This document shows, one piece after another, positions 29,091 through 45,558 of a stretch of DNA of 64,000 bases. This stretch comes from Allonocardiopsis opalescens (GTDB taxonomy: Bacteria > Actinomycetota > Actinomycetes > Streptosporangiales > Streptosporangiaceae): the NCBI RefSeq assembly GCF_003002095.1, contig NZ_PVZC01000001.1, positions 1,364,001 to 1,428,000 of the forward strand, given 5' to 3'. Position 1 is the stretch's first letter. Each line of letters opens with the position of its first letter. The notes beneath the pieces were generated by a model that did not search any database, had not been told where the DNA came from, and saw nothing but the letters and a program-made list of their open reading frames with translations. The position numbers and the translations under genes are program-made.

Positions 29091-30776
29091 ATGCAGATCC
29101 CCAGAGAAAGAGTTCGCACAGCGCTCTCCCTGACCGCGGTGTCGCTCGTCGTGGTGCCGTTGGCGTTCGTCGCTCCGCTGAACGCCGAAGAGGAGACCGC
29201 GGCTGAAGCACTGGTCAACAGCGGTTTCGAGGACGGCGGGGACGGTGTTCCCGACGGATGGACCGTCGCGAGCGGTGACGCGCGGATCAGCGTCGTGTCC
29301 GACGCGCGCGGCGGCGAGGGCGCCATGCGCGTGTCGTTCGACGAGGACGGTTCCGTGGTCCTCCGCCAGGTCATCGTCGACCAGGCGGCGGGCGCCTACG
29401 ACCTCACCGCCTGGACCCGGACGGACGGGCTCGAGGGTGGTGCGGTCGCCCTCGGCGACCAGGAGTGGCGCCGCACCGGCATCCCTTCCTCCACCGACTG
29501 GACCCAGGTCACGGTGCGCGGGGTCGAGGCGACGAGCGGCCAATTGGAAGTGCGCTTCGAACTGGCCGGAGCGGCCGGCCAGTCGATTGTGATCGATGAC
29601 GTGGCGATCGCCGAGGGCGGCGCGGGAGAGGACTTCCTGGCGGGCGGCGATCTCACCCAGCTGAACTACATCGAGGATCTGGGCGGCGTCTTCCGCGATG
29701 AGCAGGGCCGGGCCGTCGACCCCGTCGAATTCATGGCCGACAACGGCATGGGGATCGCCCGCCTGCGCATGTACAACGACACCGGCCCCGAGAACCACCG
29801 CATCGGATACCCCGGCTCCTATCTCGCGGACGGATACCAGGACCCCGAAGACGTCCTCGACCTCGCCCGCCGCGCGCATGACGCGGGCATGCAGATCCAG
29901 CTCACGTTCCACTACAGCGACTACTGGTCGAATGGAGAGATCCAGGACATCCCGCTCGAGTGGCGCTACGTCAACGACCTGCCCTACGAGGAGGCCGTGG
30001 CCGAGCTCGAAAGGCTCATGTACGACTACACGCGCGACTTCCTGCAGGAGATGGTCGACCAGGGGACTCCTCCGGCCTACGTCGCCCTGGGCAACGAGAC
30101 CGCGGGCGGGCTCCTCCACCCGTACGGTGGTTCCTGGCAGGAGGGCGGCAGTCTCGACGTCATGGCCGACTTCTTCACCGCCGCCTCGCAGGCCGTCCAC
30201 GACACGCTTCCGGACGCGCAGGTCATCATCCACCTGGACGACGCGGGCAACCGGGACAAGTACGAGTGGTACTTCGGCGAGCTGGAGCGGCGCGGCGTGC
30301 CCTACGACGTCATCGGCAGCTCGTACTACCCCTACTGGACGCAGCTGGACGTCGAGACCGTCGCCCCGTTCTTCCAGTGGGCGAACGAACGGTTCGACAA
30401 GCCCGTCATGATCATGGAAACCGGTTTCAACTGGACGCCGCTCACGCACGAAGGCCGCGAGGGCCAGCTGAACGACAACGGCCCCTACGGTGAGGACCCG
30501 ATCAGCCAGCGCGACTTTTTCCGCGAACTCTTCGCCGCGGTGAAGGCGCTGCCTCCGGGCACCGTGATCGGCGACATCTACTGGGACCCGATCTTCCTCG
30601 GCGTCCCTGGAGCGGGCTGGGAGGTCGGTCAGCCGAACTACGTCAGCAATTCGACCGTCTTCGACTTCGATGGTGTCGCCCTGCCGGTGTTCCAGGCCTA
30701 CCGGGAGAACGCCGCCTCGCCGCGCGAAACGATCGCTGTGGCCGGGCACCGGCCGCAGGGCCCTGACGGTCCCTGA
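29091..30776 (+). CDS. Secreted GH53 endo-beta-1,4-galactanase
   Basis: A 561-residue exported enzyme. A signal peptide (to about residue 32) is followed by a carbohydrate-binding module-like beta domain (about 38-175, opening LVNSGFEDGGDGVPDGW) and the GH53 barrel (about 185-545). The acid/base Glu336 sits in VALGNETAGGLL and the nucleophile Glu443 in VMIMETGFNW; the FHYSDYWS motif is also present. GH53 enzymes cut the galactan side chains of type I arabinogalactan and pectin. The start has AAGGAG upstream. A perfect hairpin follows. It is the extracellular entry point of the galactan locus that spans to 44 kb. Confidence 0.92.
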   Translation: MQIPRERVRTALSLTAVSLVVVPLAFVAPLNAEEETAAEALVNSGFEDGGDGVPDGWTVASGDARISVVSDARGGEGAMRVSFDEDGSVVLRQVIVDQAAGAYDLTAWTRTDGLEGGAVALGDQEWRRTGIPSSTDWTQVTVRGVEATSGQLEVRFELAGAAGQSIVIDDVAIAEGGAGEDFLAGGDLTQLNYIEDLGGVFRDEQGRAVDPVEFMADNGMGIARLRMYNDTGPENHRIGYPGSYLADGYQDPEDVLDLARRAHDAGMQIQLTFHYSDYWSNGEIQDIPLEWRYVNDLPYEEAVAELERLMYDYTRDFLQEMVDQGTPPAYVALGNETAGGLLHPYGGSWQEGGSLDVMADFFTAASQAVHDTLPDAQVIIHLDDAGNRDKYEWYFGELERRGVPYDVIGSSYYPYWTQLDVETVAPFFQWANERFDKPVMIMETGFNWTPLTHEGREGQLNDNGPYGEDPISQRDFFRELFAAVKALPPGTVIGDIYWDPIFLGVPGAGWEVGQPNYVSNSTVFDFDGVALPVFQAYRENAASPRETIAVAGHRPQGPDGP

Positions 30777-30794
30777 GCCCTCCTGGACGGGATC

Positions 30795-30833
30795 GCGACC
30801 GCACACGGTGCAGATCGGGCCGTGTGCGGTCGC
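30795..30833. terminator. Bidirectional terminator hairpin
   Basis: GCGACCGCACACGG and its exact complement CCGTGTGCGGTCGC enclose an 11-base loop, giving a 14-bp perfect stem. It lies between the convergent GH53 and AraC genes, 19 bases after the GH53 stop, without a T run, as is common in actinomycetes. Confidence 0.6.
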
Positions 30834-30847
30834 CGTGCGTCCGCCCC

Positions 30848-31687
30848 TCATTCGGACGGGACCGTGCCCGCGCGTCTTCGGCGGAAGGCCGTGGGACTCA
30901 TTCCCTCCGCCGAGCGGAAGACCCGGGAGAAGTACAGCGGATCGGCGTAGCCGACGAGACCGGCGACACGGAAGACGGGGAGCTCGCTCGCGGTAAGCAG
31001 GTGCTTCGCCCGCTCGATCCGGCGTGCCCTTACGAAGTCGACGACGCCCATGCCGGTGATCTCCTGGAAGAGCACGGAGAATCTCGACGGGCTGAGGCCC
31101 GCGTGCGAGGCGAGTTCGGGTACGTGGACGTCCATGGCGGGGTTGTCCACGATGCTGTCGCGGACCGCGGCGACGGCGGCGCGCGACCCCTCGGCCGTCG
31201 CCTCCCCGGTGAAGAGCGCGAAGAGCCGCCACGCGGCACCGGCGGCCAGGCAGCGGGAGGCCAGCGAGTCCTCCTGCGTCGCCTCCCGGACCTGGCCCAT
31301 CGCCGACACGGCGCCCGCCATGTCGCTGACGGTGAAGGCGGGAGCCCCTCGCATGCTGAGCACCGACCGCAGCAGCGCGGGGACGTCATCGCCGACGACG
31401 TGCATCCACCAGATGGACCAGGGTGTGTTCGCCCCCGCTCCATAGCGGTGCGCGACCGCGGGAGGCAGGACGGCCGCGTGCTGACGCTGGATCCGAACAC
31501 GGGTGGAGCCCACGCGGACATCGCCTTCTCCGTCCACACAGAGCAGCACGATCGTCTCGTCCGTGCCGCGTGGCCGCTCGCACTCGTGCCCCGCGGCGCG
31601 TGCGAAGAACCCTGCCTCCACGACACGAAGGTGGTCGAGCAGGGGCAGCGTTCGCGCGGGCACGGACGGGACCGTCGGGGCGTCCAT
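30848..31687 (-). CDS. AraC-family regulator with cupin sensor domain
   Basis: A 279-residue regulator. The N-terminal half is a cupin-like sugar-binding domain (ETIVLLCVDGEGDVRVG, LPPAVAHRYGAGANTPWSI). The C-terminal 100 residues are two helix-turn-helix units (ELASHAGLSPSRFSVLFQEI and AGLVGYADPLYFSRVFRSAE). It is the last gene of the minus-strand sugar operon; a GTG at 31696 overlaps the aldolase stop (GTGA) and is an alternative start to the ATG at 31687. It probably activates the galactan genes in response to a sugar (inference). Confidence 0.88.
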   Translation of the reverse strand: MDAPTVPSVPARTLPLLDHLRVVEAGFFARAAGHECERPRGTDETIVLLCVDGEGDVRVGSTRVRIQRQHAAVLPPAVAHRYGAGANTPWSIWWMHVVGDDVPALLRSVLSMRGAPAFTVSDMAGAVSAMGQVREATQEDSLASRCLAAGAAWRLFALFTGEATAEGSRAAVAAVRDSIVDNPAMDVHVPELASHAGLSPSRFSVLFQEITGMGVVDFVRARRIERAKHLLTASELPVFRVAGLVGYADPLYFSRVFRSAEGMSPTAFRRRRAGTVPSE

Positions 31688-31692
31688 GGCCC

Positions 31693-32304
31693 TCACGCCG
31701 GCAGGAGTCCCCGTTCCAGGAGCGATCCGCGTTGCGCGGGGTCGCTGAAGGCCGACCCGATGGCGACCGCGCGGCACCCGGCGTCCAGGAACCCCCGGGC
31801 GTTGTCCGCGCCTATTCCGCCTGTTGCGATGAAGCGCACCTCCGGGAACGGGGCGAGCTGCGCGCGTACCCATTCGGCGCCGAGCACAGAGGCGGGGAAG
31901 GCCTTGAGCCAGGTGAGGCCGGCCTTGAGAGCGGTGTCGATGTCGGTGGATGTCGCCACGCCCGGCAGGTGCGGAATACCGATCTCGTTCGAAAGGCGCA
32001 CGATGTCGAGGTCGAGCCCGGGTGCGACCGTGAACCGCGCTCCGGCATCCGCGGCCCGCCGCAGTTGGTCGGGGAAGCGCACCGTCCCCGCGCCAACGGC
32101 GCGGCCGCGTGCACGCCCCGCGACGACTGCTGCGGAGAGGGCGTCGAACGCCTCTTCGCCCTGCACGGGCACCTCGACCGCCGTGACGCCGGCGTCCCAA
32201 GCGGCATGACAGAGCGCGACGGTGTCCTGCGGGGACACTCCCCGGAAGATGCCCATCACCTGGGCGGTTGAGAACAGTTCGTCGAACATGTCGTTCGTGG
32301 TCAT
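31693..32304 (-). CDS. dgoA: KDPG/KDPGal aldolase (DgoA/Eda type)
   Basis: A 203-residue class I aldolase. The Schiff-base Lys lies in GLTWLKAFPAS, with the catalytic Glu in TAVEVPVQG and phosphate-binding GGIG (FIATGGIGADN). It cleaves 2-keto-3-deoxy-6-phosphogluconate or the galactonate isomer to pyruvate and glyceraldehyde 3-phosphate. Because a DgoD-type galactonate dehydratase is in the same locus, the galacto-form is the likely substrate. ATGA overlap with the kinase gene and an AGGAGAAG site fix the start. It carries only the aldolase domain; E. coli DgoA is similar in size. Confidence 0.85.
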   Translation of the reverse strand: MTTNDMFDELFSTAQVMGIFRGVSPQDTVALCHAAWDAGVTAVEVPVQGEEAFDALSAAVVAGRARGRAVGAGTVRFPDQLRRAADAGARFTVAPGLDLDIVRLSNEIGIPHLPGVATSTDIDTALKAGLTWLKAFPASVLGAEWVRAQLAPFPEVRFIATGGIGADNARGFLDAGCRAVAIGSAFSDPAQRGSLLERGLLPA

Positions 32305-33251
32305 CGCTTCTCCTGCTCGAGGTCGAGATGGCGACGGATCTCGTCCTGCGTCGGCGCCTGGGGGCAGTCCCCGACGATCTGCACCGCACGCGAGGCCATG
32401 AGGTGGCCGAGCCGCAGGGCACGCTCGGAGTCCAGTCCGCGCATCCACCCGCTCAGCCACCCCGCCGCGAACGCGTCGCCCGCCCCGACCGGTTCGACCA
32501 CGTTCACGCGGAGCGCGTCCGCCCAGGACGCTCCGTCCGGGCCGAACGCCGTCGCACCGGTCGCCCCGTCCTTGACGACGAGGGTCCTGGGCTCGGGGAG
32601 AAGAGCCCGGACCGCCTCGGGGGACGCGGTTCCCCAGAGGGTCTCGGCCTCGTCGCGACCGACGAACACGATGTCGGCCTGACGGGCGATGACGGCGAGT
32701 TCGTCAGCGGCTTCGGACACCGGCCAGAGTCCGGGCCGGTAGTTGACGTCGAAGCTCACAGCGGCAGGGCCGAGCACCCGGTCACCGACGACCGCGTGCG
32801 TGAGTCCGCGGCAGTCCTCGCTCAGAGCGGGTGTGATCCCGCTGATGTGCACGACGCGGGCACCCTGCGCGGACAGGGGGTTCAGGTGCGTGACGTCCAT
32901 GCGGGAAGCGGCCGAGCCGCCGCGGTAGTAGTAGACGCGCGTCGACTCGCCGTGCGGGTCCTTGGCGTACAGTCCGGTCGACGCCGCGTCGTCGGTGGTG
33001 ACCCACGAGACGTCCACACCTGCGTCGGTGAGTTCGTCCAGGATGATGCGGCCGAAGGGATCCTTGCCGACCGCGCTCACCCAGCGTGTGCGGTGGCCGA
33101 GTCGTGCGAGTGAGACCGCGACGTTGGACTCGGCGCCGCCGACCCGCAGGACGAGGCGCGAGTCGGCGGCGATGGGCCGGGCGTTCCCGGTGACGAGCAT
33201 GACCATCGTCTCTCCGAGGCACACGACCTCGGGCGCATATCCGTCAGTCAC
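32301..33251 (-). CDS. PfkB-family 2-keto-3-deoxysugar kinase
   Basis: A 316-residue ribokinase-fold kinase. The substrate motif GGAESNVAVSLARLG and the ATP/anion-hole motif VGAGDAFAAGWLSGW with catalytic Asp are intact, and the RVYYYRGGSAASRM segment is typical of 2-keto-3-deoxygluconate kinases. In E. coli, KDGal is phosphorylated by DgoK, a different fold; here a PfkB enzyme takes the same position next to the aldolase. It overlaps the upstream cellulase-like gene by eight bases and the aldolase gene by four. Confidence 0.88.
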   Translation of the reverse strand: MTDGYAPEVVCLGETMVMLVTGNARPIAADSRLVLRVGGAESNVAVSLARLGHRTRWVSAVGKDPFGRIILDELTDAGVDVSWVTTDDAASTGLYAKDPHGESTRVYYYRGGSAASRMDVTHLNPLSAQGARVVHISGITPALSEDCRGLTHAVVGDRVLGPAAVSFDVNYRPGLWPVSEAADELAVIARQADIVFVGRDEAETLWGTASPEAVRALLPEPRTLVVKDGATGATAFGPDGASWADALRVNVVEPVGAGDAFAAGWLSGWMRGLDSERALRLGHLMASRAVQIVGDCPQAPTQDEIRRHLDLEQEKR

Positions 33252-34530
33252 CCGGGCTACCGTTTCCGAAGATGTCGTTGCACTCGACCTGAATGTCGAT
33301 CTCGGTCCACATCGGGTGGTGGGGCGCGGCGTTCGACGTCACCACGGACCCCCATGCCGAGATCGCCCGCGCCTTGCGGGCGGCGGCACGGTGGATCTCC
33401 TTGCCGACCGGCCCTTCCTCGTACCAGGTGTTGAGCGGTGTGTAGCCGATCCACCCTTCTCCGAACACGAGGGGCACGCCGCGGCCGAGGCTGAAGTCTC
33501 TGGCGGCGTCCGTCCACAGGTCCAGCTTCACCAGCATGGCGCTGTGGTGCAGTGCGTGGTGTTCGTACAGGTAGCGATCCCAGACCTCCGGGTCGCACCA
33601 GTCGTGCACATAGATCTCGGGCTTGCCGACGATCGTCGCCTCCTTGCGCCACAGGTCCTCGGCCGGCGGCTGCCAGTCCTCGTATGCGGGGGCGCCGGGA
33701 CGCAGGAAGGGACGTGTCCGCTCGGTGCTGAACCTCTTTTCGTCGCGCAGGGCGAGCCGGTCGGCCAGTTCCCCCAGCACCCCGTAGACGTAGGGGTGGA
33801 ACACCGCCACATCGATGTTGTGCGGGATACCGCGCATCGCGTCGACCGGCACGCGCGCGTAGTTCACCGTGACGGGCACCTGGGGGAGTCGCTCGTGAAA
33901 GACGTCGAGCGCCGCGGTGAGCCGCTTTTCGAGCGGGACGACGAGATCGGTTCCCACGGGTTCGAGCCCCCCGGTGAGCAGCCCGTACTGCACCTCGTTG
34001 TGGAGTTCGACGAAGGCGACCCGGTCGTGGAGGCCCCGCTCCGCGAGGAACTCGTAGAGGTCGGCCTGGGCGTGGGCGAGCGCCGCGGCGCGGTCCCGGG
34101 GTTCGACGGCCATGAGCGCGTCGAACCAGGAGCGGTCCCCATAGAACGAGGAGCTCTGCTGGTATTCCCAGCTGGAGACGATGACGAAGACCTCGTGCCG
34201 CCGGGCCGCCTCGAACAGGGCGACGAGATGGGCGCGCGCGTCGAGCGTCACCCGGTGCCTGACGTCGTACCAGCGGGTTCCCTGGGCGTAGTCGCCGCCC
34301 AGCGGACCGAATGACGCCGCGCTCGTGTCCAGCCCCGAACCGAAGAGGAGAAAGGGCATGGCGCAGATGCGAATGGTGTTGTATCCGCGGTCGACCGCCT
34401 CCTGGAAGGCGCGGTCGAGGTCTTCGAAGGGCTCACCCGGCCCGGTCCGGGTGTACCAGCTGAAGTCCCACAGGGTGATGGTGAGCCGTTCGGGGAGGTG
34501 GTCGTGGATCGGAGTGGGCTGGTAGGTCAC
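33244..34530 (-). CDS. Cytoplasmic cellulase-like (GH5-type clan A) glycosidase
   Basis: A 428-residue protein without a signal peptide. It has a (beta/alpha)8 pattern: ITLWDFSWYTRTGPGEPFED at the start, VAFVELHNEVQYG with the N-E pair typical of the acid/base of clan A enzymes, and VPLVFGEGWIGY with a candidate nucleophile Glu. Related proteins are annotated as 'cellulase-like' sugar hydrolases of unknown specificity. In this operon, between the sugar importer and the KDG kinase, it may trim imported galacto-oligosaccharides inside the cell (inference). It starts 43 bases after the permease gene. Confidence 0.7.
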   Translation of the reverse strand: MTYQPTPIHDHLPERLTITLWDFSWYTRTGPGEPFEDLDRAFQEAVDRGYNTIRICAMPFLLFGSGLDTSAASFGPLGGDYAQGTRWYDVRHRVTLDARAHLVALFEAARRHEVFVIVSSWEYQQSSSFYGDRSWFDALMAVEPRDRAAALAHAQADLYEFLAERGLHDRVAFVELHNEVQYGLLTGGLEPVGTDLVVPLEKRLTAALDVFHERLPQVPVTVNYARVPVDAMRGIPHNIDVAVFHPYVYGVLGELADRLALRDEKRFSTERTRPFLRPGAPAYEDWQPPAEDLWRKEATIVGKPEIYVHDWCDPEVWDRYLYEHHALHHSAMLVKLDLWTDAARDFSLGRGVPLVFGEGWIGYTPLNTWYEEGPVGKEIHRAAARKARAISAWGSVVTSNAAPHHPMWTEIDIQVECNDIFGNGSPGD

Positions 34531-34573
34531 AGAGCGTCCTTTTCTCTGTTCGCGGGGCGTCTCGGGGAAACGG

Positions 34574-35491
34574 TCAGCTCTTGACGGCTCCGGCGGCGAG
34601 CCCGTCGATCAACTGCTTGCGCAGCGCGATGAACACGATGACGCTCGGGATGGCGGCGAGGATCGAGCCGGCCAGGACGATGTCGTACTGACGCCCCTCG
34701 GCGCCGAAGATCGCCTGCAGGCCCAGCGGCAGCGTGTACATGTCGGGGTCGCCGACGACGATGAGCGGCCACAGGAAGTTGTTGTACGCGTTGAGGAAGC
34801 TCCAGACGGCGAGGGCACCGAGTCCGGGACGCAGCAGGGGGGCGACGATACTGCGGAAGATCGTGAACTCGCCGGCGCCGTCGATACGGGCGGCGTTCAG
34901 GATCTCGTCGGGGATCGCCTGCTCACTGAACTGCCGCATCATGAAGATGCCGAACGCCGGAGCGACCCAGGGCACGATGAGGGCGAACCACGGCTGGGCG
35001 AGTCCCGTCTTGGCGAGCATGATGAACAGCGGAACGACGATCACCGCGAACGGGATGGCCATCGAGCTGAACATGATGTCGAAGAGGGCGCGCTTGCCCC
35101 GGAACTCGTACTTGGCGAAGCCGAAGCCCGCCAGTGAGCACACGAACACCGTGATCACCGTGGACACGACCGCGATGACCGTGCTGACGAGGAACCATGA
35201 GACGAAGGGATAGCGTTCGAACAGGCTCACGTAGTTGAGGACCGTGGGGTCCGCGGGAATCAGGGTCGGCGGGTAGCCGAACAGGTCGCTGCGCTGCTTG
35301 AAGGACGAGAACAGGGCCCAGACGAGCGGGAAGAGCCAGAACAGCCCCACCAGGGCGAGCGCGATGAAGATGAGCGGACGGGATGTGTCCCGCGAGGCTC
35401 CCGGGCGCCGCACGGCTCGCCTTCCCCGCTTGGGCGCGATGGCGGCGGCGGAGCGCGTTTCCGTGGGCCTTGGGTCGAGTGTGCTGTTCAC
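34574..35491 (-). CDS. Sugar ABC transporter permease (MalG type)
   Basis: A 305-residue permease of the carbohydrate uptake-1 type, with about six membrane segments. The EAA loop reads LNAARIDGAGEFTIFRSIVA, and the C-terminus ends QLIDGLAAGAVKS, a signature of MalG-like subunits. A basic N-terminal tail precedes the first segment. Its ATG overlaps the stop of the MalF-type gene. No ATPase gene is present in the locus, so a shared MsiK-type ATPase elsewhere is expected, as is usual in actinomycetes. Confidence 0.92.
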   Translation of the reverse strand: MNSTLDPRPTETRSAAAIAPKRGRRAVRRPGASRDTSRPLIFIALALVGLFWLFPLVWALFSSFKQRSDLFGYPPTLIPADPTVLNYVSLFERYPFVSWFLVSTVIAVVSTVITVFVCSLAGFGFAKYEFRGKRALFDIMFSSMAIPFAVIVVPLFIMLAKTGLAQPWFALIVPWVAPAFGIFMMRQFSEQAIPDEILNAARIDGAGEFTIFRSIVAPLLRPGLGALAVWSFLNAYNNFLWPLIVVGDPDMYTLPLGLQAIFGAEGRQYDIVLAGSILAAIPSVIVFIALRKQLIDGLAAGAVKS

Positions 35492-36429
35492 TTGGCTTTT
35501 CCGATCCCGAGTGACGTGTAGAGCATGCGGCCGATGACGAAGACCGCGAGGAACATCACCACTCCGCCGGCCGCGGCGTAGCCGAACTCCTGCCGTTCGA
35601 AGCCCGCGCGGTAGATGAACTGCGCGATGGACATGGTCGCCTCACCGGGGCCGCCGCGGGTGAGCAGGAACGGCTCCTCGAAGATCTGGGCGGTGCTGAC
35701 GAGCACGGTCACGGCGATGAAGGCGCTGATCGGCTTCATCTGCGGCAGGGTGACGTGCCAGAACGAACGGATGTCCCCCGCGCCGTCCAGCGAGGCCGCT
35801 TCGTACAGCTCGCGTGGAATGTTCTGCAGGCCGGCCAGGAAGAAGATGGTGAGATAACCGGTCCAGCGCCACAGGACCAGGATGATGACGACCACCTTCG
35901 CCCAGGCGGGGCTGGTGAGCCATTCGATGCCGCCGAAGCCGAAGACGGCGCGCAGCAGGGCGTTGACGAGCCCGTACTGCTGGTCGAAGAAGAGGCCGAA
36001 CACCAGGGCGATGACGATGGGCGAGACCACGACGGGGATGAAGAACACGGCGCGGAACATGTCACGCAGCCGCAGTCCTCGCGCGTTGATGGCCATCGCG
36101 AGGAAGAGCGACAGCGGCAGGACGACCGCCATCGTGACAACCGTGTAGATGGCGGTGTTGCCGAGCGCGGTCCAGAAGCTGGGGTCGCGGAACAGTTCGG
36201 TGTAGTTGCGGAAGCCCACCCAGACCGGCGTGCCGAGGCCGGTCCATTCCGTGAAACTCAACGCGATCCCGACGAGGATCGGGACGAGCATGAAAAGCGC
36301 GTAGAGAACGAAGAACGGCGAGATGAACAGGTAGGGGGCGCGTGTCATCGACGTGCCGCGCCGGCGGGGTCGTGGTGCCTGCGCTCGCGTGGCCGAGCGC
36401 GGACCGGCGAGAAGTGCGTTGCTGCTCAT
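35488..36429 (-). CDS. Sugar ABC transporter permease (MalF type)
   Basis: A 313-residue permease with six predicted membrane segments. It has the N-terminal PYLFISPFFVLYALFMLVPI and the EAA loop LYEAASLDGAGDIRSFWHVT, typical of MalF-like sugar permeases. It lies 20 bases downstream of the binding-protein gene and overlaps the MalG-type gene by four bases. Confidence 0.92.
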   Translation of the reverse strand: MSSNALLAGPRSATRAQAPRPRRRGTSMTRAPYLFISPFFVLYALFMLVPILVGIALSFTEWTGLGTPVWVGFRNYTELFRDPSFWTALGNTAIYTVVTMAVVLPLSLFLAMAINARGLRLRDMFRAVFFIPVVVSPIVIALVFGLFFDQQYGLVNALLRAVFGFGGIEWLTSPAWAKVVVIILVLWRWTGYLTIFFLAGLQNIPRELYEAASLDGAGDIRSFWHVTLPQMKPISAFIAVTVLVSTAQIFEEPFLLTRGGPGEATMSIAQFIYRAGFERQEFGYAAAGGVVMFLAVFVIGRMLYTSLGIGKAK

Positions 36430-36448
36430 GGGGGCTCTTTCGTGTTTC

Positions 36449-37819
36449 CTAGACGGCCTGGCGCGTCTGCTGCAGGTAGCCCTCGGTGGTGGCCCTGATG
36501 GCCTGGGCCGCGTTCATGCGACCGCTGTAGACGTCCAGGAGCGGAGCCCCCATCGCCGCGGAGAGCTGCTGCATCGTCTCCGACTGGTAGAAGACCGGGA
36601 TATCGCGTGCGGCCTCGCGGAAGACGTCGAAGACCCGCTGGCCGCCGAGGAACTCGTCCTCGATGCCGACGAAGTCGGGGTCCTCGTACAGGGAGGCCAG
36701 GGTGGGCAGGTAGCCGCCGGCCTGGTAGCGCAGCAGCTGCCCCTCCTTGGTCAGGTAGGTGCGGCGCAGCAGGTCGAGGGCGGCTTCGGCGCGCGGGCTG
36801 TCGAGCCCGATGGCGAAACCCGTTCCGCCGAGATTGCTCGCGATGTGCCCTCCCGCGCCGAAGCGCGGGATCGTGCGCATCCGCCACCGCCCGGCCTGGT
36901 CCGGGGCGTTGGCCTGGAGGCCGTAGAGGTTGTACCAGGACGGCATCACGGTGGCGATGAGCGTTCCCGACTGCAGCGCCGAGGCGGCCGCGGCTCCGTA
37001 GGGGTCGCCGATGACCATGAGGGAGCCGCTGTCGACGCCGCGGCGGATGAACTCCAGCACCTCGACGGACTCGTCGGTGTCGATCGTGAGTTCGCCGGTC
37101 TCGCTGAAGGGGGAGCCGCCCCGCTGCAGCAGGAACTGCAGGTAGCTGTTGAAGATCGAGGTGTTGTCTCCGTTGGAGACCGATCCGATCGCCTGCCCCG
37201 TCCGCTCGAACGCCATCGCGCCGGCTTCGAGGTACTCGTCCCAGGTCTCCATCCCGGGGTCGATGCCCAGCCTCGCGAACTCGTCCTCCCGGTAGAAGAA
37301 CACCGAGATCGAGGCGTCGGACTCCAGAGCGTAGACCGTGCCGTCCCGTGTGTAGGGCGCCGTGCGCAGGACCTCGTCGTCGATGTCGGTGACGAGTCCG
37401 CCGAGGTCGACGAAGAGGTTCTCGGCCATCTGGCTCTTCATCACGCGGGGGAACTCGGAGATGATGATCCCCAGCAGGTCAGGGCCTTCGTTTCCCGCGA
37501 CCGCCTGGGTGATGGTGCGCGTCACCAGGTCGCCTCCGTTGGCCGAGACCGGCGCGATCCGCGGAGCGAAGGCCGAACCCCGCATCAGCGCGTCGCTGGC
37601 CGCGGCGTTCTGGAAGGCCGTGACGTATCCGGGGTCGTGCGTCCACAAGCCGAGTTCCACCGCGCCGGACGTGACCTGCGTGGCCGAACGGGCGCCGCAT
37701 CCCGCGAGCGCGAGCGCCCCGACCGCTCCCAGACCGGCCAGGAAGGCGCGCCGGGTGGGGAGAGGCCGCTCGCCGGCAGGTGCCCGACCGGTGGCGGGGG
37801 TGGCTGACCGAGTACTCAT
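36449..37819 (-). CDS. Sugar ABC transporter substrate-binding lipoprotein
   Basis: A 456-residue family 1 extracellular receptor. The N-terminus has twin arginines (TRRAFLAGLG) and a lipobox (LALAGC, Cys near residue 41), suggesting a Tat-exported lipoprotein. Later parts show the family pattern (NEGPDLLGIIISEFPRV, GTVYALESDASISVFFY, GGTGFAIGLDSPRAEAA). Placement with galactanase, beta-galactosidase and the De Ley-Doudoroff genes suggests galacto-oligosaccharides as ligand. It is the first gene of a seven-gene minus-strand operon divergent from the GntR gene. Confidence 0.88.
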   Translation of the reverse strand: MSTRSATPATGRAPAGERPLPTRRAFLAGLGAVGALALAGCGARSATQVTSGAVELGLWTHDPGYVTAFQNAAASDALMRGSAFAPRIAPVSANGGDLVTRTITQAVAGNEGPDLLGIIISEFPRVMKSQMAENLFVDLGGLVTDIDDEVLRTAPYTRDGTVYALESDASISVFFYREDEFARLGIDPGMETWDEYLEAGAMAFERTGQAIGSVSNGDNTSIFNSYLQFLLQRGGSPFSETGELTIDTDESVEVLEFIRRGVDSGSLMVIGDPYGAAAASALQSGTLIATVMPSWYNLYGLQANAPDQAGRWRMRTIPRFGAGGHIASNLGGTGFAIGLDSPRAEAALDLLRRTYLTKEGQLLRYQAGGYLPTLASLYEDPDFVGIEDEFLGGQRVFDVFREAARDIPVFYQSETMQQLSAAMGAPLLDVYSGRMNAAQAIRATTEGYLQQTRQAV

Positions 37820-37937
37820 GTTTCCTCTCAGTGGATCGGGACGCGCCCCGCCTGCCGGTCCTGGCCAGGCGTCGCGTCACATCGAAAGCCACATGGGACG
37901 AACGTCCCGGGATCATGATGACACAGATCACACTATA

Positions 37938-37954
37938 ATTCATAATTTATCAAT
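37938..37954. promoter_or_regulatory. Candidate GntR/DgoR operator between divergent units
   Basis: ATTCATAATTTATCAAT is a 17-base near-palindrome with one mismatch, in an unusually AT-rich island (about 37930-37960). It lies 119 bases from the importer start and 66 from the GntR start. FadR/DgoR-type repressors commonly bind such sites. The AT-rich patch also contains TATAAT (37934-37939), a possible -10 element. Confidence 0.55.
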
Positions 37955-38019
37955 AAATCGTCCATCTGCGGTAACGTGAACCTGCGATGGAGCGTGCGCA
38001 GGGCGGAACGAGGAGGAAC

Positions 38020-38775
38020 GTGCGGAGCTACAAGGGCCGCGGCCTGCACGGCCAGGTCGTCGAGGCGGTCGGTCGTCGAATCGTCCAGGGTCACTACACC
38101 GACGGGCTGACCCTCGACATGGAGGAGTTGCGGCGCGAACACGACGTGAGCCTCACGGTCATCCGCGAGACCCTGAAGGTCCTCGCGGCCAAGGGGCTCG
38201 TCGACGCCCGGCAGCGGCGTGGCACCTTCGTGCTGCCGCGCGGCCGCTGGAATCTCCTGGACCCCGACATCCTGCGGTGGGAGATCACCGCGGAGAACCT
38301 GCCGGGCAAGCTCGAACAGCTCGCCGAGGTGCGCGCCATCTTCGAACCCGCCGCGTCCGCACTCGCTGCCACCCGACGCGAAGAGAACGACATCTCCGCG
38401 ATCGAGGCCGCACTCGCGGCGATGGAGGCGGCGGCGGACCCGGAGGAGCTGACCCGGGCCGACCTGGATTTCCACCGCGCGGTGCTGGCGGCCACGAAGA
38501 ACGATCTCCTCGGCCGGGTCGAACTGGTCACCCGCGTGCTCCTGGCCGAACGGGACCTCCTGGTGCATCAGCACGTCGCGACCGCTGACGGCCTCGCCCT
38601 GCACCGCTCGCTGTTCGAGTCGATCGCCGCCGGAGCACCTGCGGACGCCGCCCGTGCTACCGAACGGCTCCTGGGCCAGGCCCTCGCGGACGAGAACGCC
38701 TCGATCACCACCTCCGCCACGGGCAGGGAAGCCGGAACCGACGCCCATTCCTCGAAGAAGGCCGGTCGAGCATGA
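38020..38775 (+). CDS. GntR (FadR subfamily) regulator, DgoR-like
   Basis: A 251-residue regulator. The N-terminal winged helix (RREHDVSLTVIRETLKVL, GLVDARQRRGTFVLPR) is followed by the WNLLDPDILRW linker, which also occurs in E. coli DgoR, and an all-helical FCD domain (DLDFHRAVLAATKNDLLG). The GTG at 38020 is preferred because AGGAGG precedes it; an ATG at 37987 has no ribosome site. Its stop overlaps the DgoD start. By analogy with DgoR it probably represses this locus until galactonate is present; the palindrome at 37938 is the candidate site. Confidence 0.85.
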   Translation: MRSYKGRGLHGQVVEAVGRRIVQGHYTDGLTLDMEELRREHDVSLTVIRETLKVLAAKGLVDARQRRGTFVLPRGRWNLLDPDILRWEITAENLPGKLEQLAEVRAIFEPAASALAATRREENDISAIEAALAAMEAAADPEELTRADLDFHRAVLAATKNDLLGRVELVTRVLLAERDLLVHQHVATADGLALHRSLFESIAAGAPADAARATERLLGQALADENASITTSATGREAGTDAHSSKKAGRA

Positions 38776-39914
38776 GAATCACCCGTATTGAGACCTTCCT
38801 CGTCGCCCCCCGCTGGCTCTTCTGCCGCGTCGAGACCGACGAGGGCCTGGTCGGCTGGGGCGAACCCGTGCTCGAAGGCCGCGCTCTCACCGTGCGCACC
38901 GCCGTGGAGGAGCTCGCTCCGCTGCTCATCGGACGCGACCCGCTGCGGGTGGAGGACCTGTGGCAGGTCATGACGAAGTCGACCTTCTACCGCGGCGGGG
39001 GCATCCTGTCGAGCGCGGTGGCGGGCATCGACCAGGCCCTGTGGGACATCGCGGGCAAAGCGCGCGGTGTCCCCGTGCACGAGCTCTTCGGCGGACCGGT
39101 ACGCGATCGGGTGCGCTTCTACTCCTGGGTCGGCGGGGACGAACCGGCCGAGATCGCCGACCGCGTGGCGGCGCAGGTCGAGGCGGGGGCGACGGCCGTC
39201 AAGATGAACGCGATCGGGCGCAAGCGGGCGGTCGCGTCGAACGCGGAGCTCGACGCCGTCATCGCGCGCGCAGCTGAAGCGCGATCGGTCCTCGGTCCCG
39301 AGCGCGACTTCGCCCTGGACTTCCACGGCCGCATGTCGATCATCGACTGCCGGCGCCTCTTCCCCTGGCTGGCGCCGCTGTCGCCGCTCTTCGTCGAGGA
39401 ACCCCTCGTACCGGAGCTCGGCCACCTGCTGCCCCAGCTGGCCGAACACGGTGTGCCGATCGCGACGGGCGAACGACTCTTCGGACGGCACGAGTTCCTC
39501 CCCGCCTTCACAGCGGGGATCTCGGTGGCGCAGCCCGACATCTCGCACGCGGGCGGCATCTCCGAGGTACGCCGCATCGCCTCCATGGCCGACGTGTGGG
39601 GCGTGCAGATCGCCCCGCACTGCCCGCTGGGGCCGATCGCGCTGGCATCGAGCCTGCAGGTCGGTTTCAGCACGCACAATTTCCTCGTCCAGGAGGTCAG
39701 CGCCGGCATCCACTACAACGCGGGTGCCGACCTGCTCGACTACCTCGTCGACACCTCCGTCTTCCGGACCGAGGACGGACACATCCCCCGCCTCACCGGC
39801 CCGGGGCTGGGAATCGAGATCGACGAGGGGGCCGTCCGTGCCGCCGACGCACGCGGCTTCACCTGGACCCCTCCCGTCTGGCGCGACGACGACGGCGCCC
39901 ATGCCGAGTGGTGA
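38772..39914 (+). CDS. dgoD: D-galactonate dehydratase
   Basis: A 380-residue enolase-superfamily enzyme, nearly the same length as E. coli DgoD. Strong motif agreement is seen along the whole chain: ETDEGLVGWGEPVLEGRA, FYRGGGILSSAVAGIDQALW, RFYSWVGGDEP, ALDFHGRMS (metal Asp and the catalytic His), FVEEPL, IATGER, QPDISHAGGI, APHCPLGPIALA (catalytic His) and GIHYNAGADLLDYL. It converts D-galactonate to 2-keto-3-deoxygalactonate in the cytoplasm. It is coupled to the GntR gene by ATGA and followed by an SDR gene. Confidence 0.92.
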   Translation: MRITRIETFLVAPRWLFCRVETDEGLVGWGEPVLEGRALTVRTAVEELAPLLIGRDPLRVEDLWQVMTKSTFYRGGGILSSAVAGIDQALWDIAGKARGVPVHELFGGPVRDRVRFYSWVGGDEPAEIADRVAAQVEAGATAVKMNAIGRKRAVASNAELDAVIARAAEARSVLGPERDFALDFHGRMSIIDCRRLFPWLAPLSPLFVEEPLVPELGHLLPQLAEHGVPIATGERLFGRHEFLPAFTAGISVAQPDISHAGGISEVRRIASMADVWGVQIAPHCPLGPIALASSLQVGFSTHNFLVQEVSAGIHYNAGADLLDYLVDTSVFRTEDGHIPRLTGPGLGIEIDEGAVRAADARGFTWTPPVWRDDDGAHAEW

Positions 39915-39945
39915 TCCCGCAGGCGACCAGGAAAGCAGGCCATCC

Positions 39946-40707
39946 GTGAACTCCGAATCCCCCCTCGCCGGGCGCGTCGCCGTCGTCACCGGTTGCGCCG
40001 GCGGGATCGGCGCGGCCACCGCGCGCCGTCTCGCCGAGGACGGCGCGCGTGTCTTCCTCATCGACCTCTCGCCCGACGTCCTCCAGGTCCGCGACGAGCT
40101 GCGCGCCGCGGGGCACCGCGCGGCGGCGTCGGTCATGGACGTCGCGGACGAGGTGGCCTGGAACACGGCGGCGGCCTCGTGCCGAACGGAGCTGGGGCGC
40201 CCCCACATCCTGGTGAGCAACGCGTTCACCGTGGACGTCGCACCGCTTGAGGACACGGCACCGGCCAGCTGGGACCGGCAGCTGCGCGTCAACCTCACCG
40301 GCGCCTATCTCGCCACCCGCGCGCTGCTGCCCGACCTCACGGCGTCGGGGCGCGGTGCCGTCGTCATGGTCTCGTCCGTGCACGCGCACTTCGGACTCCC
40401 CGGCCGCGCGGCGTACGCCTCGACCAAAGCGGGCATCACCGGCCTGGCCCGCCAGCTCGCGGCCGAGTACGGCCCGGCCATCCGCGTCAATAGCGTGCTC
40501 CCGGGCCCCGTGCTCACCGCCGCGTGGGACGGCATCGACGCCCAGGCCCGTGCCGGGGCCGCGGCGGCGACCGCTCTGGGCCGTATGGGCGCCCCGGAGG
40601 AGGTCGCCGACGCCATCGCCTACCTGTGCTCCGACCGCGCCTCGTTCATCACGGGCGTCGAGCTCGCCGTCGACGGCGGATGGAGCGTCACCAAGGATTC
40701 GGCGTAG
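39946..40707 (+). CDS. SDR-family dehydrogenase (candidate D-galactose 1-dehydrogenase)
   Basis: A 253-residue classical short-chain dehydrogenase: TGCAGGIG nucleotide-binding motif, DVAD, the active-site Ser in VMVSSVHAH, YASTK catalytic pair and a C-terminal DGGWSV. The NNAG motif is changed to SNAF. An Asp (FLIDLS) at the end of the second strand favours NAD. Its place between galactonate dehydratase and an AraC regulator suggests oxidation of D-galactose to the lactone, the first step of the De Ley-Doudoroff pathway; substrate is inferred from context. GTG start at 39946. Confidence 0.8.
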   Translation: MNSESPLAGRVAVVTGCAGGIGAATARRLAEDGARVFLIDLSPDVLQVRDELRAAGHRAAASVMDVADEVAWNTAAASCRTELGRPHILVSNAFTVDVAPLEDTAPASWDRQLRVNLTGAYLATRALLPDLTASGRGAVVMVSSVHAHFGLPGRAAYASTKAGITGLARQLAAEYGPAIRVNSVLPGPVLTAAWDGIDAQARAGAAAATALGRMGAPEEVADAIAYLCSDRASFITGVELAVDGGWSVTKDSA

Positions 40708-40725
40708 TCCCATGGAGGGTCCGCG

Positions 40726-41607
40726 ATGCCCGCAGCAGCGCATGCGCGTGCGGAGAACACCGGTTTCGCGGGGCAGCGCGTATGTGTCGTCCCGCTGCCG
40801 CAGGTCGCCACCGCCCTGCGCCGGCCCGCCACGCGGCAGCTCACCGTCGTCCACGCGGGCTACTACCGCCGCGCCGCGGGCCACACGCGCGAACGCGGAA
40901 AGGGCACGCGCGACGTCATCGTCATCCTCTGCATCGCCGGCACGGGCACCGTCGAGGTCGGCGGCACGAGCCATCCCGTCGGCCCGTTGAGCTACGCCGT
41001 TCTGCCCGCCTTCACGCCGCACACCTATCGGGCCTCCGCCGACAACCCGTGGACGATCTGGTGGGTGCACCTGCGCGGCACCGGGCTCGGTGACCTCACC
41101 CGGGTGCTCATGCGCGACGGCCGTCCGGTCACGCGTGTCCGCTCGGTCGGCCACGCGGTCGCCCTGTTCGACGAGCTGCTGACCCTGCTGGAGCGGCGGC
41201 TGTCCCCCGCGCACATCCTCGCCTCCTCCGGCGTCGCCTGGCAGCTGCTGACCCGGCTGGCCGCCGACGGCGCCCTGCCGAGCGAGGACTCCCCCCTCGA
41301 CCGGGCCATCCGCTACCTTGAGGCGCGCGTCGACGGCACCGTTCGGGTGGACGACCTGGCAGCGCTCGTCGGCCTCTCGACGTCCCACCTGACGGCCCAG
41401 TTCCGCAAGGCGACGGGCGGCGGCCCCGGCGCCTTCCACACCGGACTGAAGATGGCGCGGGCGCGCACCCTCCTCGACACGACGACGAAGACCATCGGCG
41501 AGATCGCCCGGGCGGTGGGCTACACCGACGCCCTCTACTTCTCCCGGCAGTTCCGCCGCCACCACGGGATCAGCCCCTCGTCCTACCGTGCGCAGGCGAA
41601 GGGCTGA
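40726..41607 (+). CDS. AraC-family regulator with cupin sensor domain
   Basis: A 293-residue regulator built like the AraC protein at 31 kb: N-terminal cupin (VIVILCIAGTGTVEVGG, LPAFTPHTYRASADNPWTIW) and C-terminal double helix-turn-helix (DDLAALVGLSTSHLTAQFRK, EIARAVGYTDALYFSRQFRR). The two share the 'NPW[ST]IWW.H' sensor motif, so they may be paralogues binding related sugars. It begins 18 bases after the SDR gene and ends 15 bases before the convergent beta-galactosidase gene. Confidence 0.88.
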   Translation: MPAAAHARAENTGFAGQRVCVVPLPQVATALRRPATRQLTVVHAGYYRRAAGHTRERGKGTRDVIVILCIAGTGTVEVGGTSHPVGPLSYAVLPAFTPHTYRASADNPWTIWWVHLRGTGLGDLTRVLMRDGRPVTRVRSVGHAVALFDELLTLLERRLSPAHILASSGVAWQLLTRLAADGALPSEDSPLDRAIRYLEARVDGTVRVDDLAALVGLSTSHLTAQFRKATGGGPGAFHTGLKMARARTLLDTTTKTIGEIARAVGYTDALYFSRQFRRHHGISPSSYRAQAKG

Positions 41608-41622
41608 TCCCGGCGGGAACGG

Positions 41623-44004
41623 TCAGCGGACCGACCGCGAGCGGACGGCGGTCAAGGACGCCTCCCGTACCTGCAGCACCGGCGCGGACGCGTCGGGGCG
41701 CACCCGCGGGTCCACGTAGACGCCCGAGTCCGGCGCCCAGGCGAACGCGCGCAGCCACAGACCGGAGGCGCGGATCTCCTCGCGGTAGGGTGCCAGGTCG
41801 ACTTCGACGTCCCGGCCGTACCAGAACTGGTCGGCGATGAGCCGGTCTCCCGCGTAGACGCGGACGGCATCGCCCGTCCAGTCCAGCCGCAGCAGCAGCC
41901 GTTCGGCGTCGTCGAAGAGCGCATCGTCCACGGGTACCTCCACGGGTGCGAGCGCCGCGAAGTCATCGTCGTCGGGAGCCGACAAACGCCCGACGCTGCC
42001 GCCCGTGCGCACGGGCGCGAGCGCCGCGATGTCGAACACCGGCGCGGGGACCGGAACCGAGACGTCCTCACCGGGCACCGCGTAACGGGTGAAGACCGTG
42101 CCCTCCCCGGGTACCTCGGTGAGCCCGCCCCCGCGAAGCGGGGGGAAGACGTCGAGGACGCCGTCGTGCGCCTGCGCGACGTAGCGGAAGCCGCCGTCGA
42201 ACCATCCGCTGCCGCGCCAGACCACGACGCTCTCGCGGCCGTCGACCTCGCCCTTCCAGACGGCGTCCGCCGTCGCGGGGTCGAGGAAGACGAGGGTCGT
42301 GTCGCCCACGACCACCTCGGCGCCCAGCCCAGGGGCCGACGTCGGCACCGCGATGAGGACATCGCCCTCGTCACGGAGTTCGGCCCCGCGGACGGTGTCG
42401 GCCGTGACTCCCTCGAGCTGGAGTTCCACGCCGACACCCTCGGTCGCGGCGAACAGGATGACCGGCCCGCGAGGAGTGTCGATCCGCGTGATCGGCTGAG
42501 CGGTGGCGGTGAGCGCGGGGATGCCGCCGAGGCGCTGCCGCAGCGGCCAGGCGGCGTGGACGCCCGAGCGCAGCGTGAAGGGCGCGCTCGGCACGGTCAC
42601 CGTACGCTCGGAGAACTCGACCTCGAAGCGCACTCCGTCGACGTCGGCCAGCGCGGCGAGGGCCGGCTGCTGGTTGTTGACGAAGAGGTAGCCGCGTTCG
42701 CCGTCGCCGCGCACGGCCCAGCGCACCGTGTCACCGCCCTGGGGCAGGACGGTCGGATAGGTCGCGATCGTCGGCCCGAAGGCGTCGAGCAGCAGGTGCT
42801 GGCGGCGCAGCCGGTGGAAGTGGGCGCGTTCTCCGCCTTCGGCGCCCAGCGGGGCGAAGAAGTCGTAGTCACGCACCGGCAGATCGTTCGGATAACCCGT
42901 CGCGTGGGATTCCTGGGTCGTCGAAAGCGCTCCGACGACCTGGGTGGCACCGTGGTAGAGGTAGTAGCCCTGCCAGGCCGAACCGCTCCCCAGCTTGGTG
43001 AGCGCGAGGGCGGAGACGTCCTCCGGGTCGACGAGGGGACGCCGGTGGTAGGCGACCTGCATACCGCCACCGAGCTCGCAGGTCGCGAACGGCCACGGAT
43101 CGTCCGCGCCCAGGGCCGCCTCGTTGCCGGCGGAGACGGGTGCGTCGCGCAGGTCGGCACCGACCGACAGATCATCGCGCACGGTGGTGAAGGTGAAGTG
43201 CATGACGCCGAAGTGCGGCCAGCCGGTCGTGGACTCCTCCCAGAACCCGTCCGAATACCCCGCGTATACCGGCAGCAGGGCGCCCTTCGGCAGCTCGGCC
43301 CCGCCCCACCCGGTCGCCACCCACAGCGGCGCCCGCATACCGACCTCCTCGGCCAGCGCACGCAGCCGGCCGAGGTGGTCGGGCTGGTCGTAGAGCTCGT
43401 TGTCGACCTGAACGCCGATGACGGGCCCGGCGGGGTCGTGCTCGCTGTGGAAGAGGCCGCGCACCTGCTCCTCGATGGCGGCGTACCAGCCGCGCGCCAG
43501 CTCGAGATAGCCGGGATCATTCGTGCGGTGCGCGATGGGCAGCGCCTGCAGCCAGTCGGGGAATCCGCCATTGCGCGTCTCGCCGTGCGCCCAGGGCCCG
43601 ATGCGGATGAGGACCTTGAGGCCGACGCGGTCCGCGGTCTCGACGAAGCGCCTCAGGTCGCGGTGACCATCCCAGCGGACCTCACCCCGGACCTCCTCAT
43701 GGACGATCCACAGCAGATACGTCGCGACGATGCCGATACCGCCCGCCTTCATCTTCCGCAGTTCGGTCTCCCAGCGCTCGGGGAGGTCCCGGCTGAAGTG
43801 GTACTCGCCCATGACGGGGAACCACGGCCGCCCGTCCCTCTCGACATAGCGCTTCGTGAGCCGGATCCCACCCGGCACGCCTTCCTCGTGACCCATGTCG
43901 AGCGGAGCGTTCCCCACCACGGGGGCTCTGGGGACGCGGACCCGCCGGGTGCGCGGTGCCTGGTCGCCGGTCTGGGACTGTGCCTTGTCGAAGTTCGTCG
44001 TCAC
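41623..44004 (-). CDS. GH35 beta-galactosidase
   Basis: A 793-residue enzyme. The GH35 opening is clear (FPVMGEYHFSRDLPERWE, then GGIGIVATYLLWIVHE, LIRIGPWAHGETRNGGFPDW). The acid/base Glu is in IGVQVDNELYDQ and the nucleophile Glu in FATCELGGGMQ. Beta-rich domains fill the C-terminal half. No signal peptide is seen, so it probably acts in the cytoplasm on imported galacto-oligosaccharides. The GTG at 44004 is preferred; starts further upstream lie in unstructured, promoter-like sequence with a TATAGA element. It converges on the AraC gene. Confidence 0.85.
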   Translation of the reverse strand: MTTNFDKAQSQTGDQAPRTRRVRVPRAPVVGNAPLDMGHEEGVPGGIRLTKRYVERDGRPWFPVMGEYHFSRDLPERWETELRKMKAGGIGIVATYLLWIVHEEVRGEVRWDGHRDLRRFVETADRVGLKVLIRIGPWAHGETRNGGFPDWLQALPIAHRTNDPGYLELARGWYAAIEEQVRGLFHSEHDPAGPVIGVQVDNELYDQPDHLGRLRALAEEVGMRAPLWVATGWGGAELPKGALLPVYAGYSDGFWEESTTGWPHFGVMHFTFTTVRDDLSVGADLRDAPVSAGNEAALGADDPWPFATCELGGGMQVAYHRRPLVDPEDVSALALTKLGSGSAWQGYYLYHGATQVVGALSTTQESHATGYPNDLPVRDYDFFAPLGAEGGERAHFHRLRRQHLLLDAFGPTIATYPTVLPQGGDTVRWAVRGDGERGYLFVNNQQPALAALADVDGVRFEVEFSERTVTVPSAPFTLRSGVHAAWPLRQRLGGIPALTATAQPITRIDTPRGPVILFAATEGVGVELQLEGVTADTVRGAELRDEGDVLIAVPTSAPGLGAEVVVGDTTLVFLDPATADAVWKGEVDGRESVVVWRGSGWFDGGFRYVAQAHDGVLDVFPPLRGGGLTEVPGEGTVFTRYAVPGEDVSVPVPAPVFDIAALAPVRTGGSVGRLSAPDDDDFAALAPVEVPVDDALFDDAERLLLRLDWTGDAVRVYAGDRLIADQFWYGRDVEVDLAPYREEIRASGLWLRAFAWAPDSGVYVDPRVRPDASAPVLQVREASLTAVRSRSVR

Positions 44005-44166
44005 ACCAGCGACGGTACGGAGGCCCAGGCGATGCGACCAGGACAAAAACGACGCTCTATATGGACGATCCGACGGCGGCATCCCCGCCCGCGCGGATGA
44101 ACTCATCGTCTGTCCGACTTCGTCGTTGTGCCCCGAAAAGCGGCACCTGCCGATTACTCTCCAGTC

Positions 44167-44976: not shown

Positions 44977-45184
44977 CAGCATGTGCACGTCGCGACAGGA
45001 GCTGGATCGCTCAACCGAAGAACTGGTCTCCCGGCGTGCATTGGCGCAGTTGGTGGGGCTGGGTCCGCTGCGAGTGGGGCGCGGTTGAACGCGGTGCCGG
45101 CGCCCCTGACCTACCACCCGCGAACACGAATCGTGGAGGCCCGGATCGAACCGGGACTCCACGACATGTGCGAAACGACGGTGT

Positions 45185-45481: not shown

Positions 45482-45485
45482 GGGG

Positions 45486-45558
<73 letters not shown>

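Follow-up and report, generated by a model that had tools for sequence, protein, structure and literature searches.

A stretch of 64,000 nucleotides from the genome of Allonocardiopsis opalescens (NCBI RefSeq assembly GCF_003002095.1, contig NZ_PVZC01000001.1, positions 1,364,001 to 1,428,000; the whole stretch is called the window below) carries at positions 29091–44004 what is probably a galactan-utilisation locus feeding the De Ley-Doudoroff route, in which beta-1,4-galactan would be degraded through galactose, galactonate and 2-keto-3-deoxy-6-phosphogalactonate (KDPGal) to pyruvate and glyceraldehyde 3-phosphate (G3P). Pfam and NCBIfam scans of the open reading frames (ORFs) in this region identified 13 genes (Table 1). 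Every gene named in a first-pass annotation of this DNA was found where it had been placed, with Pfam E-values far beyond chance, and the scans added a thirteenth gene to its list, encoding a hydrolase of the family PF12876. Such a locus would represent a plan leading from polymer to central metabolism for pectic galactan in an actinomycete, able to bypass the intermediates of the Leloir pathway, and it offers testable assignments for its short-chain dehydrogenase/reductase (SDR), PfkB-family kinase, aldolase and PF12876 hydrolase, the last of which is the most useful new lead.

Gene layout and proposed pathway

Seven minus-strand genes, encoding the solute-binding protein, permeases A and B, the PF12876 hydrolase, the PfkB kinase, the aldolase and AraC regulator 1 (AraC 1) in this order, overlap or lie 5–43 bp apart. 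They face a plus-strand run, 167 bases away, for the GntR regulator, the D-galactonate dehydratase DgoD, the SDR and AraC regulator 2 (AraC 2), in which the genes overlap (GntR and DgoD by 4 bp) or are separated by 18–31 bp. The genes for the glycoside hydrolases (GH) of families 53 and 35 are separate units, one at each end of the locus. Because of the tight gene spacing, the importer, hydrolase, kinase and aldolase are probably encoded on one transcript, and the spacing, from which the operons are deduced, probably argues for joint use of the genes. The first-pass proposal that a path from polymer to pyruvate and glyceraldehyde phosphate can be drawn is upheld, with the kinase and the aldolase lying in the importer run and a similar set occurring in another genome of the same family (G028, described below).

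In the proposed course, the secreted GH53 enzyme, whose family is clear, would cut beta-1,4-galactan while being held to it by a domain resembling a carbohydrate-binding module of family 61 (CBM61). The solute-binding protein and the two permeases would import the galacto-oligosaccharides with an ATPase encoded elsewhere, and GH35 and the PF12876 hydrolase would release galactose inside the cell. The SDR may then oxidise galactose to galactonolactone, which would open spontaneously or by a lactonase encoded elsewhere, and DgoD would dehydrate galactonate to 2-keto-3-deoxygalactonate (KDGal), a step well supported by family and residues. The PfkB kinase and the aldolase, both of clear family, would phosphorylate KDGal and split KDPGal to pyruvate and G3P. 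Galactonate would be sensed by the DgoR-like GntR regulator, a predicted repressor of the divergent promoter, and AraC 2 may control GH35 and perhaps the divergent promoter as well. Leloir genes elsewhere would provide a second galactose route for the cell. The locus had also been called complete, but an ATPase, and perhaps a lactonase, would have to be supplied from elsewhere in the genome. No ABC-transporter ATPase (PF00005) was found among the scanned genes of the region and no lactonase among the 13 genes; a MalK-like ATPase is encoded at another locus of the genome, and the lactonase family PF08450 has five matches elsewhere in it.

Table 1. Features of the locus and its putative regulatory sites (positions in the window)
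Feature	Position	Strand	Evidence
GH53 endo-beta-1,4-galactanase, secreted	29091..30776	+	PF07745 E 2e-71; catalytic domain residues 184-536
AraC-family regulator 1	30848..31687	-	PF12833/PF02311; AraC E 9e-21; 34% identical to AraC 2
KDPG/KDPGal-type class I aldolase	31693..32304	-	PF01081 E 2e-35
PfkB-family KDG/KDGal-type kinase	32301..33251	-	PF00294 E 1e-51
PF12876 'cellulase-like' clan GH-A hydrolase	33244..34530	-	PF12876 E 3e-19; 3gyc match
Sugar ABC permease B	34574..35491	-	PF00528; 66% to L137, 62% to L158
Sugar ABC permease A	35488..36429	-	PF00528; 62% to L137 and L158
Solute-binding protein, lipoprotein by inspection	36449..37819	-	PF13416 E 6e-25; PDB sugar-binding proteins
Divergent promoter region	37820..37986	.	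167 bases; TGGACGATTTA at 37954-37964 (-)
GntR/FadR-type regulator, DgoR-like	37987..38775	+	PF00392 E 5e-13 + PF07729 (FCD) E 8e-17
DgoD D-galactonate dehydratase	38772..39914	+	MR/MLE E 9e-55; PRK14017
SDR dehydrogenase, proposed D-galactose 1-dehydrogenase	39946..40707	+	PF13561 E 1e-57
AraC-family regulator 2	40726..41607	+	PF12833/PF02311; AraC E 1e-20
GH35 beta-galactosidase, GTG start	41623..44004	-	PF01301 E 6e-40; PDB GH35 beta-galactosidases
Putative AraC 2 site TGGACGATCCG	44062..44072	+	~60 bp upstream of GH35

Enzymes of the proposed route

By sequence comparison, the assignment of DgoD as a D-galactonate dehydratase is secure. The protein passes the NCBIfam equivalog PRK14017 with 531 bits (cut-off 311), is 49% identical to DgoD of E. 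coli, and has D183, H185, E209, E234 and H283 (window numbering) invariant, which we take to be the catalytic residues. The PfkB kinase finds its best NCBIfam models in NF041332 and NF040938, for kinases of 2-keto-3-deoxygluconate (KDG) and KDGal, scoring below both cut-offs, and it matches the KDG kinase structure 1v19 at E 3e-49. It is a candidate KDGal kinase because no match to the kinase DgoK was found in the genome.

The catalytic domain of the GH53 enzyme resembles solved galactanases (PDB 7osk, E 1e-44; 1r8l), and the Glu of its GNE and the Glu of its ET motif, presumably the acid/base and the nucleophile, align with the solved GH53 enzyme 7osk. Residues 40–171 match the structures 2xom (T. 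maritima) and 2xon at E 2.6e-4, which we take to be beta-1,4-galactan-binding CBM61 modules. Signal peptides and lipoproteins were called by inspection: GH53 has an evident signal peptide at its N-terminus, and none was seen in GH35 or in the PF12876 hydrolase. GH35 has solved GH35 beta-galactosidases as its closest PDB matches, and its GTG start fits the locus end at 44004, the longest ORF beginning at 44106. The two permeases have Pfam E-values of 3e-16 and 3e-17. For the SDR, the NCBIfam score refers to 39949–40707 and the Pfam score to a longer ORF, 39451–40707.

For the PF12876 hydrolase, a low-confidence structure model built from a two-row alignment (mean pLDDT 61) has 3gyc as its best Foldseek hit and suggests a GH-A type barrel. 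Its gene neighbourhood was followed in 297 genomes of the same GTDB family (the family sample, which includes the window's own genome, G000, 98% complete) and in a class sample; in the genome searches few candidates were scored per genome (e.g. 6). In the family sample any match to the hydrolase was found in 10 of 297 genomes and a strong one (at least 60% identity) in five including the window's, all five adjoining DgoD. The class sample gave 17 matches of at least 43% identity outside the window, all of which were fetched, with three short weak ones left out. DgoD is present in six of these 17 loci, GH35 in five and a relative of AraC 2 in nine; at least one of the three occurs in 16, and the seventeenth is a contig of 3.5 kb. 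Together with the four other family loci, DgoD, GH35 or an AraC 2-type regulator stands alongside the hydrolase in 20 of 21. In two loci from other actinomycete families (L205 and L211), a protein of about 1,100 amino acids with DUF5107 and TPR repeats lies between the hydrolase and the AraC 2 relative, and a protein alike in size, the only feature by which it was judged, takes the same position in L208, L210 and L212.

Occurrence in related actinomycetes

The oxidative galactoside module is widespread in actinomycetes, as judged from the galactosidase, SDR, PfkB and lactonase genes counted near DgoD. A search of named genomes yielded 73 loci, 69 of which encode a DgoD of at least 50% identity, and 33 of these 69 have a galactosidase (at least 100 bits) no more than 10 kb away from DgoD, compared with none of 20 control stretches (312 kb in total, about 16 kb on average, genus not matched). 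Near-identical relatives were kept in this set; 60 of its loci span at least 20 kb, and 29 of those 60 have a galactosidase. By family, GH36 was found in 31 loci, GH27 in 24 and GH35 in one, and the same 10-kb range around DgoD contains no GH53 match in any of the 69. Moreover, of the overall set of 96 DgoD loci, which includes loci picked for DgoD or hydrolase matches and counts some genomes twice (e.g. L051/L165 and L040/L163), 72 have an SDR relative no more than 4 kb from DgoD, 63 have PfkB no more than 6 kb from it, and 37 have a lactonase relative of the PF08450 type. The SDR-GntR-DgoD-aldolase-PfkB loci of Streptomyces, Micromonospora, Streptosporangium and others thus contain the same oxidative module as the window; unlike the window, their front end is mostly a GH36 or GH27 alpha-galactosidase and their aldolase mostly has Val at the stereo-control site discussed below. 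This wiring of galactosidases to galactose oxidation is a wider actinomycete habit that is little described in the literature we found.

The combination with GH53 is another matter. In the family sample, GH53 exceeds the Pfam cut-off in 82 genomes, DgoD the NCBIfam cut-off in 104 and both do so in 51, and the two adjoin each other only in G000 and G028, that is in 2 of the 51, as read by eye from two tables in which fragmented contigs can hide further cases. The first-pass view of the island as unusual is therefore apt for the GH53 link, which looks rare, but not for SDR-GntR-DgoD-kinase-aldolase modules, often with alpha-galactosidases. The contig of G028 (C46, with loci L137 and L138) shares with the window GH53 (51% identity), DgoD (60%), the SDR (47%), the PF12876 hydrolase (59%), the permeases (62–66%), the solute-binding protein (51%), GntR and GH35 (45%). 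It differs in having a PF08450 (SGL) lactonase, a second GH53 and a DgoD of another branch, and its 24.8 kb gave no match to the AraC regulators, the kinase or the aldolase. At L137:695–1957 the same contig has an integrase of the phage type (PF00589) together with a helicase-like ORF, which hints at mobility.

GH35, GntR, SDR and DgoD occur together in six family loci, L137 and L157–L161, the latter five being among 15 regions fetched from the family DgoD matches; the SDR match of L158 is weak (34%, 75 bits). Within L157–L161, three loci have the PF12876 hydrolase whole, one has a remnant of it and one lacks it; the aldolase is present in three and PfkB in one. In a tree of 39 hand-chosen rows, the DgoD proteins of G028 and L157–L161 form one starred clade (100/100) with the window DgoD outside it, on a long branch whose exact placement is unsure. 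The window permeases, on the other hand, share 62–66% identity with their counterparts in G028 and G187. It therefore looks as if the locus were a mosaic, in which the window DgoD has been combined with a similar gene set of a different branch. Assembly of this kind is better evidence of a functional link than plain descent as a unit would be. A single inherited block had been considered as the source of the resemblance to G028, but this reading was abandoned because the DgoD tree separates the window from the G028 clade.

Regulators and putative operator sites

The GntR regulator belongs to the FadR subfamily, lies beside dgo genes and shares 35% identity over 195 amino acids with DgoR of E. 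coli (E 2e-33), in agreement with its first-pass description as DgoR-like. R71 and P92 of DgoR, positions at which variants make E. coli respond less strongly to galactonate (PMC12288454), are kept as R85 and P106.

Relatives of AraC 2 with 43–54% identity were found in 18 rows of other loci. In 13 of these 18 rows the matched coding stretch is preceded, at a distance of up to 60 bases, by TGGACGATYCG, a motif picked after the sequences of AraC 2 loci had been viewed; the count is 11 of 16 when two genomes that had been fetched twice are set aside. Exact copies in the window are found upstream of GH35 (Table 1) and at 38077–38087 on the minus strand inside the GntR gene, and none is present upstream of the window's own AraC 2; the sequence TGGACGATTTA in the divergent promoter agrees with the motif at 9 of 11 positions. 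With one mismatch allowed, the window has 9 copies against 4.2 expected, a mild enrichment reached by 3 of 100 shuffles. In addition, the 8-mer TGGACGAT is present in 7 copies against 1.9 expected, a number not reached in 100 shuffles; several of the copies are coding, and counts in coding sequence are inflated because AraC 2 has a conserved W-T-I-W stretch. The candidate ATGGACRWT, tried as a shared motif of the GH53, GH35 and divergent promoters (4 copies against 0.8 expected, reached in 3 of 100 shuffles), was dropped.

Only tentatively, as a proposal whose parts taken together we hold to be possible rather than probable, do we suggest that these are swappable actinomycete galactoside loci, with front ends of GH36/GH27, GH35 or GH53 attached to an oxidative core (SDR, DgoR-like GntR, DgoD, PfkB and aldolase), that the PF12876 hydrolase is a galactoside-releasing enzyme of its own kind, and that the AraC 2-type regulator reads TGGACGATYCG.

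Alternatives to the proposed galactan-to-pyruvate route

Several observations speak against a route from galactan through galactonate, and they are given here with the alternatives on which they bear. The window's genome contains adjacent galE and galK genes on contig C13 (TIGR01179, 393 bits, cut-off 262; TIGR00131, 270 bits, cut-off 227). Its galT, on contig C6, passes TIGR00209 (114 bits, cut-off 102) but not PRK11720, and galactose may therefore go the Leloir way. A second DgoD above the NCBIfam cut-off is encoded on contig C2 (L139:8977–18248) and could handle galactonate. Galactose might thus be used mainly by the Leloir enzymes, with the DgoD module serving free D-galactonate or another sugar acid and being clustered here by chance. 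There are precedents for coexistence: some Brevibacterium groups, in which galactonate clusters have been described (PMC5719810, PMC6706770), have both these clusters and Leloir genes (PMC5719810), and in Zobellia galactose is expected to pass via Leloir enzymes while 3,6-anhydro-D-galactose takes an oxidative route (PMC5698469). We nevertheless consider this alternative fairly unlikely, for the kinase and the aldolase lie in the run of importer and hydrolase genes, and galactosidases recur beside DgoD and SDR in many genomes. Moreover, a job limited to galactonate fits the second locus better, where an importer, the MalK-like ATPase, PfkB, an aldolase with Thr at the stereo-control site and a RidA-like gene adjoin DgoD and no match to the SDR or a hydrolase was found; by its genes, it looks like a galactonate-uptake locus. 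The statement that no galactokinase, GalT or GalE gene is here is true of the 13 genes, none of which is a Leloir gene, and the phrase "oxidative instead of Leloir" can be kept for the cluster but not for the organism, which is not without Leloir genes since galE, galK and galT each score above an NCBIfam equivalog cut-off. The locus is a variant of the widespread habit described above, and no replacement of Leloir metabolism in this organism is shown by it.

The second group of observations concerns specificity. The SDR is a member of a large family, its best NCBIfam scores stay under the cut-off, and the best of them is for a subfamily named glucose 1-dehydrogenase (PRK07231, 199 bits, cut-off 215); its role as a D-galactose 1-dehydrogenase is accordingly putative. 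The aldolase is the weak link of the pathway: its family is clear, and it is a candidate for the KDPGal role. At the stereo-control site, where V154 of the E. coli KDPGal aldolase DgoA corresponds to T161 of the 2-keto-3-deoxy-6-phosphogluconate (KDPG) aldolase Eda (PMC4915726), it has Thr as in Eda, and it is in the minority, as the linked aldolases at the 96 DgoD loci include 56 with Val and 10 with Thr, no residue being obtained for 30. The kinase and aldolase could therefore be KDG and KDPG enzymes for a gluconate-type substrate, or promiscuous, with an SDR that acts on another aldose such as glucose or arabinose; enzymes specific for gluconate-derived intermediates had already been raised as a possibility in the first-pass annotation, and the Thr residue fits that. 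This we regard as very unlikely. DgoD is a galactonate dehydratase by its equivalog score, and the first strand of the aldolase is not Eda-like, with Gly at the site of Eda P19 (A11 in DgoA). The three PF01081 aldolases found in the genome are alike in having Thr at the V154 position, the residue of the third having been read by eye. Furthermore, the V154T exchange alone leaves the E. coli KDPGal aldolase KDPGal-selective, with an enantiomeric excess (ee) of -79% against -96% (PMC4915726).

Finally, the GH53 gene is not firmly tied to the remainder. Loci L157–L161, of which 20 kb each were viewed, have the GH35, SDR and DgoD core without a full GH53, L157 having a match of 51 residues. The GH53 of G028 is the only one, of those compared, that is more than 40% identical to the window GH53; in 394 class genomes no match but the window's own is above 39%, and the long ones reach 36%. 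The GH53 promoter is without a good AraC 2 site and has only ATGGAC-like matches, so that the AraC 2 motif does not support joint control of GH53. The target might accordingly be another beta-galactoside, such as arabinogalactan side chains, a galactolipid or a lactose-type sugar, with GH53 as a late addition. To our knowledge, however, GH53 is known only as endo-beta-1,4-galactanase, and the N-terminus of the window enzyme resembles the galactan-binding CBM61, and we find this alternative unlikely too, pectic beta-1,4-galactan being the substrate that we prefer.

Relation to described systems

The locus resembles the dgoRKADT operon of E. coli in its GntR regulator (35%), its dehydratase of the same equivalog (49%) and its aldolase of the same family (32%). 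It is unlike that operon in having PfkB and an ABC importer where E. coli has the kinase DgoK and the transporter DgoT, and it adds the SDR, the hydrolases and GH53. In PUL 7 of Pseudoalteromonas carrageenovora and similar red-algal galactan loci, galactan hydrolases likewise adjoin a galactonate dehydratase and a lactonase, but the setting is Gram-negative, the substrate is a sulfated galactan, genes for 3,6-anhydro-galactose are included and the two remaining oxidative-route genes lie on the chromosome (PMC6262041). The agar cluster SCO3471–SCO3487 of Streptomyces coelicolor is also an actinomycete polysaccharide cluster leading to 2-keto-3-deoxygalactonate; it differs by its agarases and 3,6-anhydro-L-galactose enzymes, and GH53 is not mentioned for it in the excerpt (PMC9706016). 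Among the titles and abstract openings listed for open-licence PMC papers on galactonate, a part of the matching papers, no description of a GH53-DgoD locus of an actinomycete was found, which is weak evidence that such a locus is not in print.

Flanking regions

The 3' end of a tRNA-Lys(CTT) gene and its downstream flank are present as direct repeats at 18298–18449, 27422–27531, 27622–27778 and 45181–45528; 45 bases of the tRNA-Lys (45484–45528) are identical at 18405–18449, and the copies of the flank at 27.4–27.8 kb are 79–86% identical. Because of these repeats, the galactan locus appears to lie in a 17.7-kb unit beside a tRNA gene, like a genomic island formed by repeated insertion. The ORFs scanned in the repeat-bounded region, a part of all its ORFs, include no integrase. 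About 0.5 kb beyond the tRNA-Lys, a GH3 enzyme is encoded at 46033–47871, with beta-N-acetylhexosaminidase as its best NCBIfam model, below the cut-off, and it may or may not be part of the galactan locus. Among 60 relatives of this right-flank gene, the five stretches examined had no synteny with the window flanks and no tRNA. On the left, the region 18000–28800 has a lower G+C content (59–64% in four of the five 2-kb steps from 18001 to 28000) and consists mostly of ORFs without a Pfam match. The exceptions are a NucA/NucB-type nuclease domain (19247–19801), a weak helicase match (20563–21762), a kelch-repeat protein (23064–24239) and a NUDIX protein (28133–28585).

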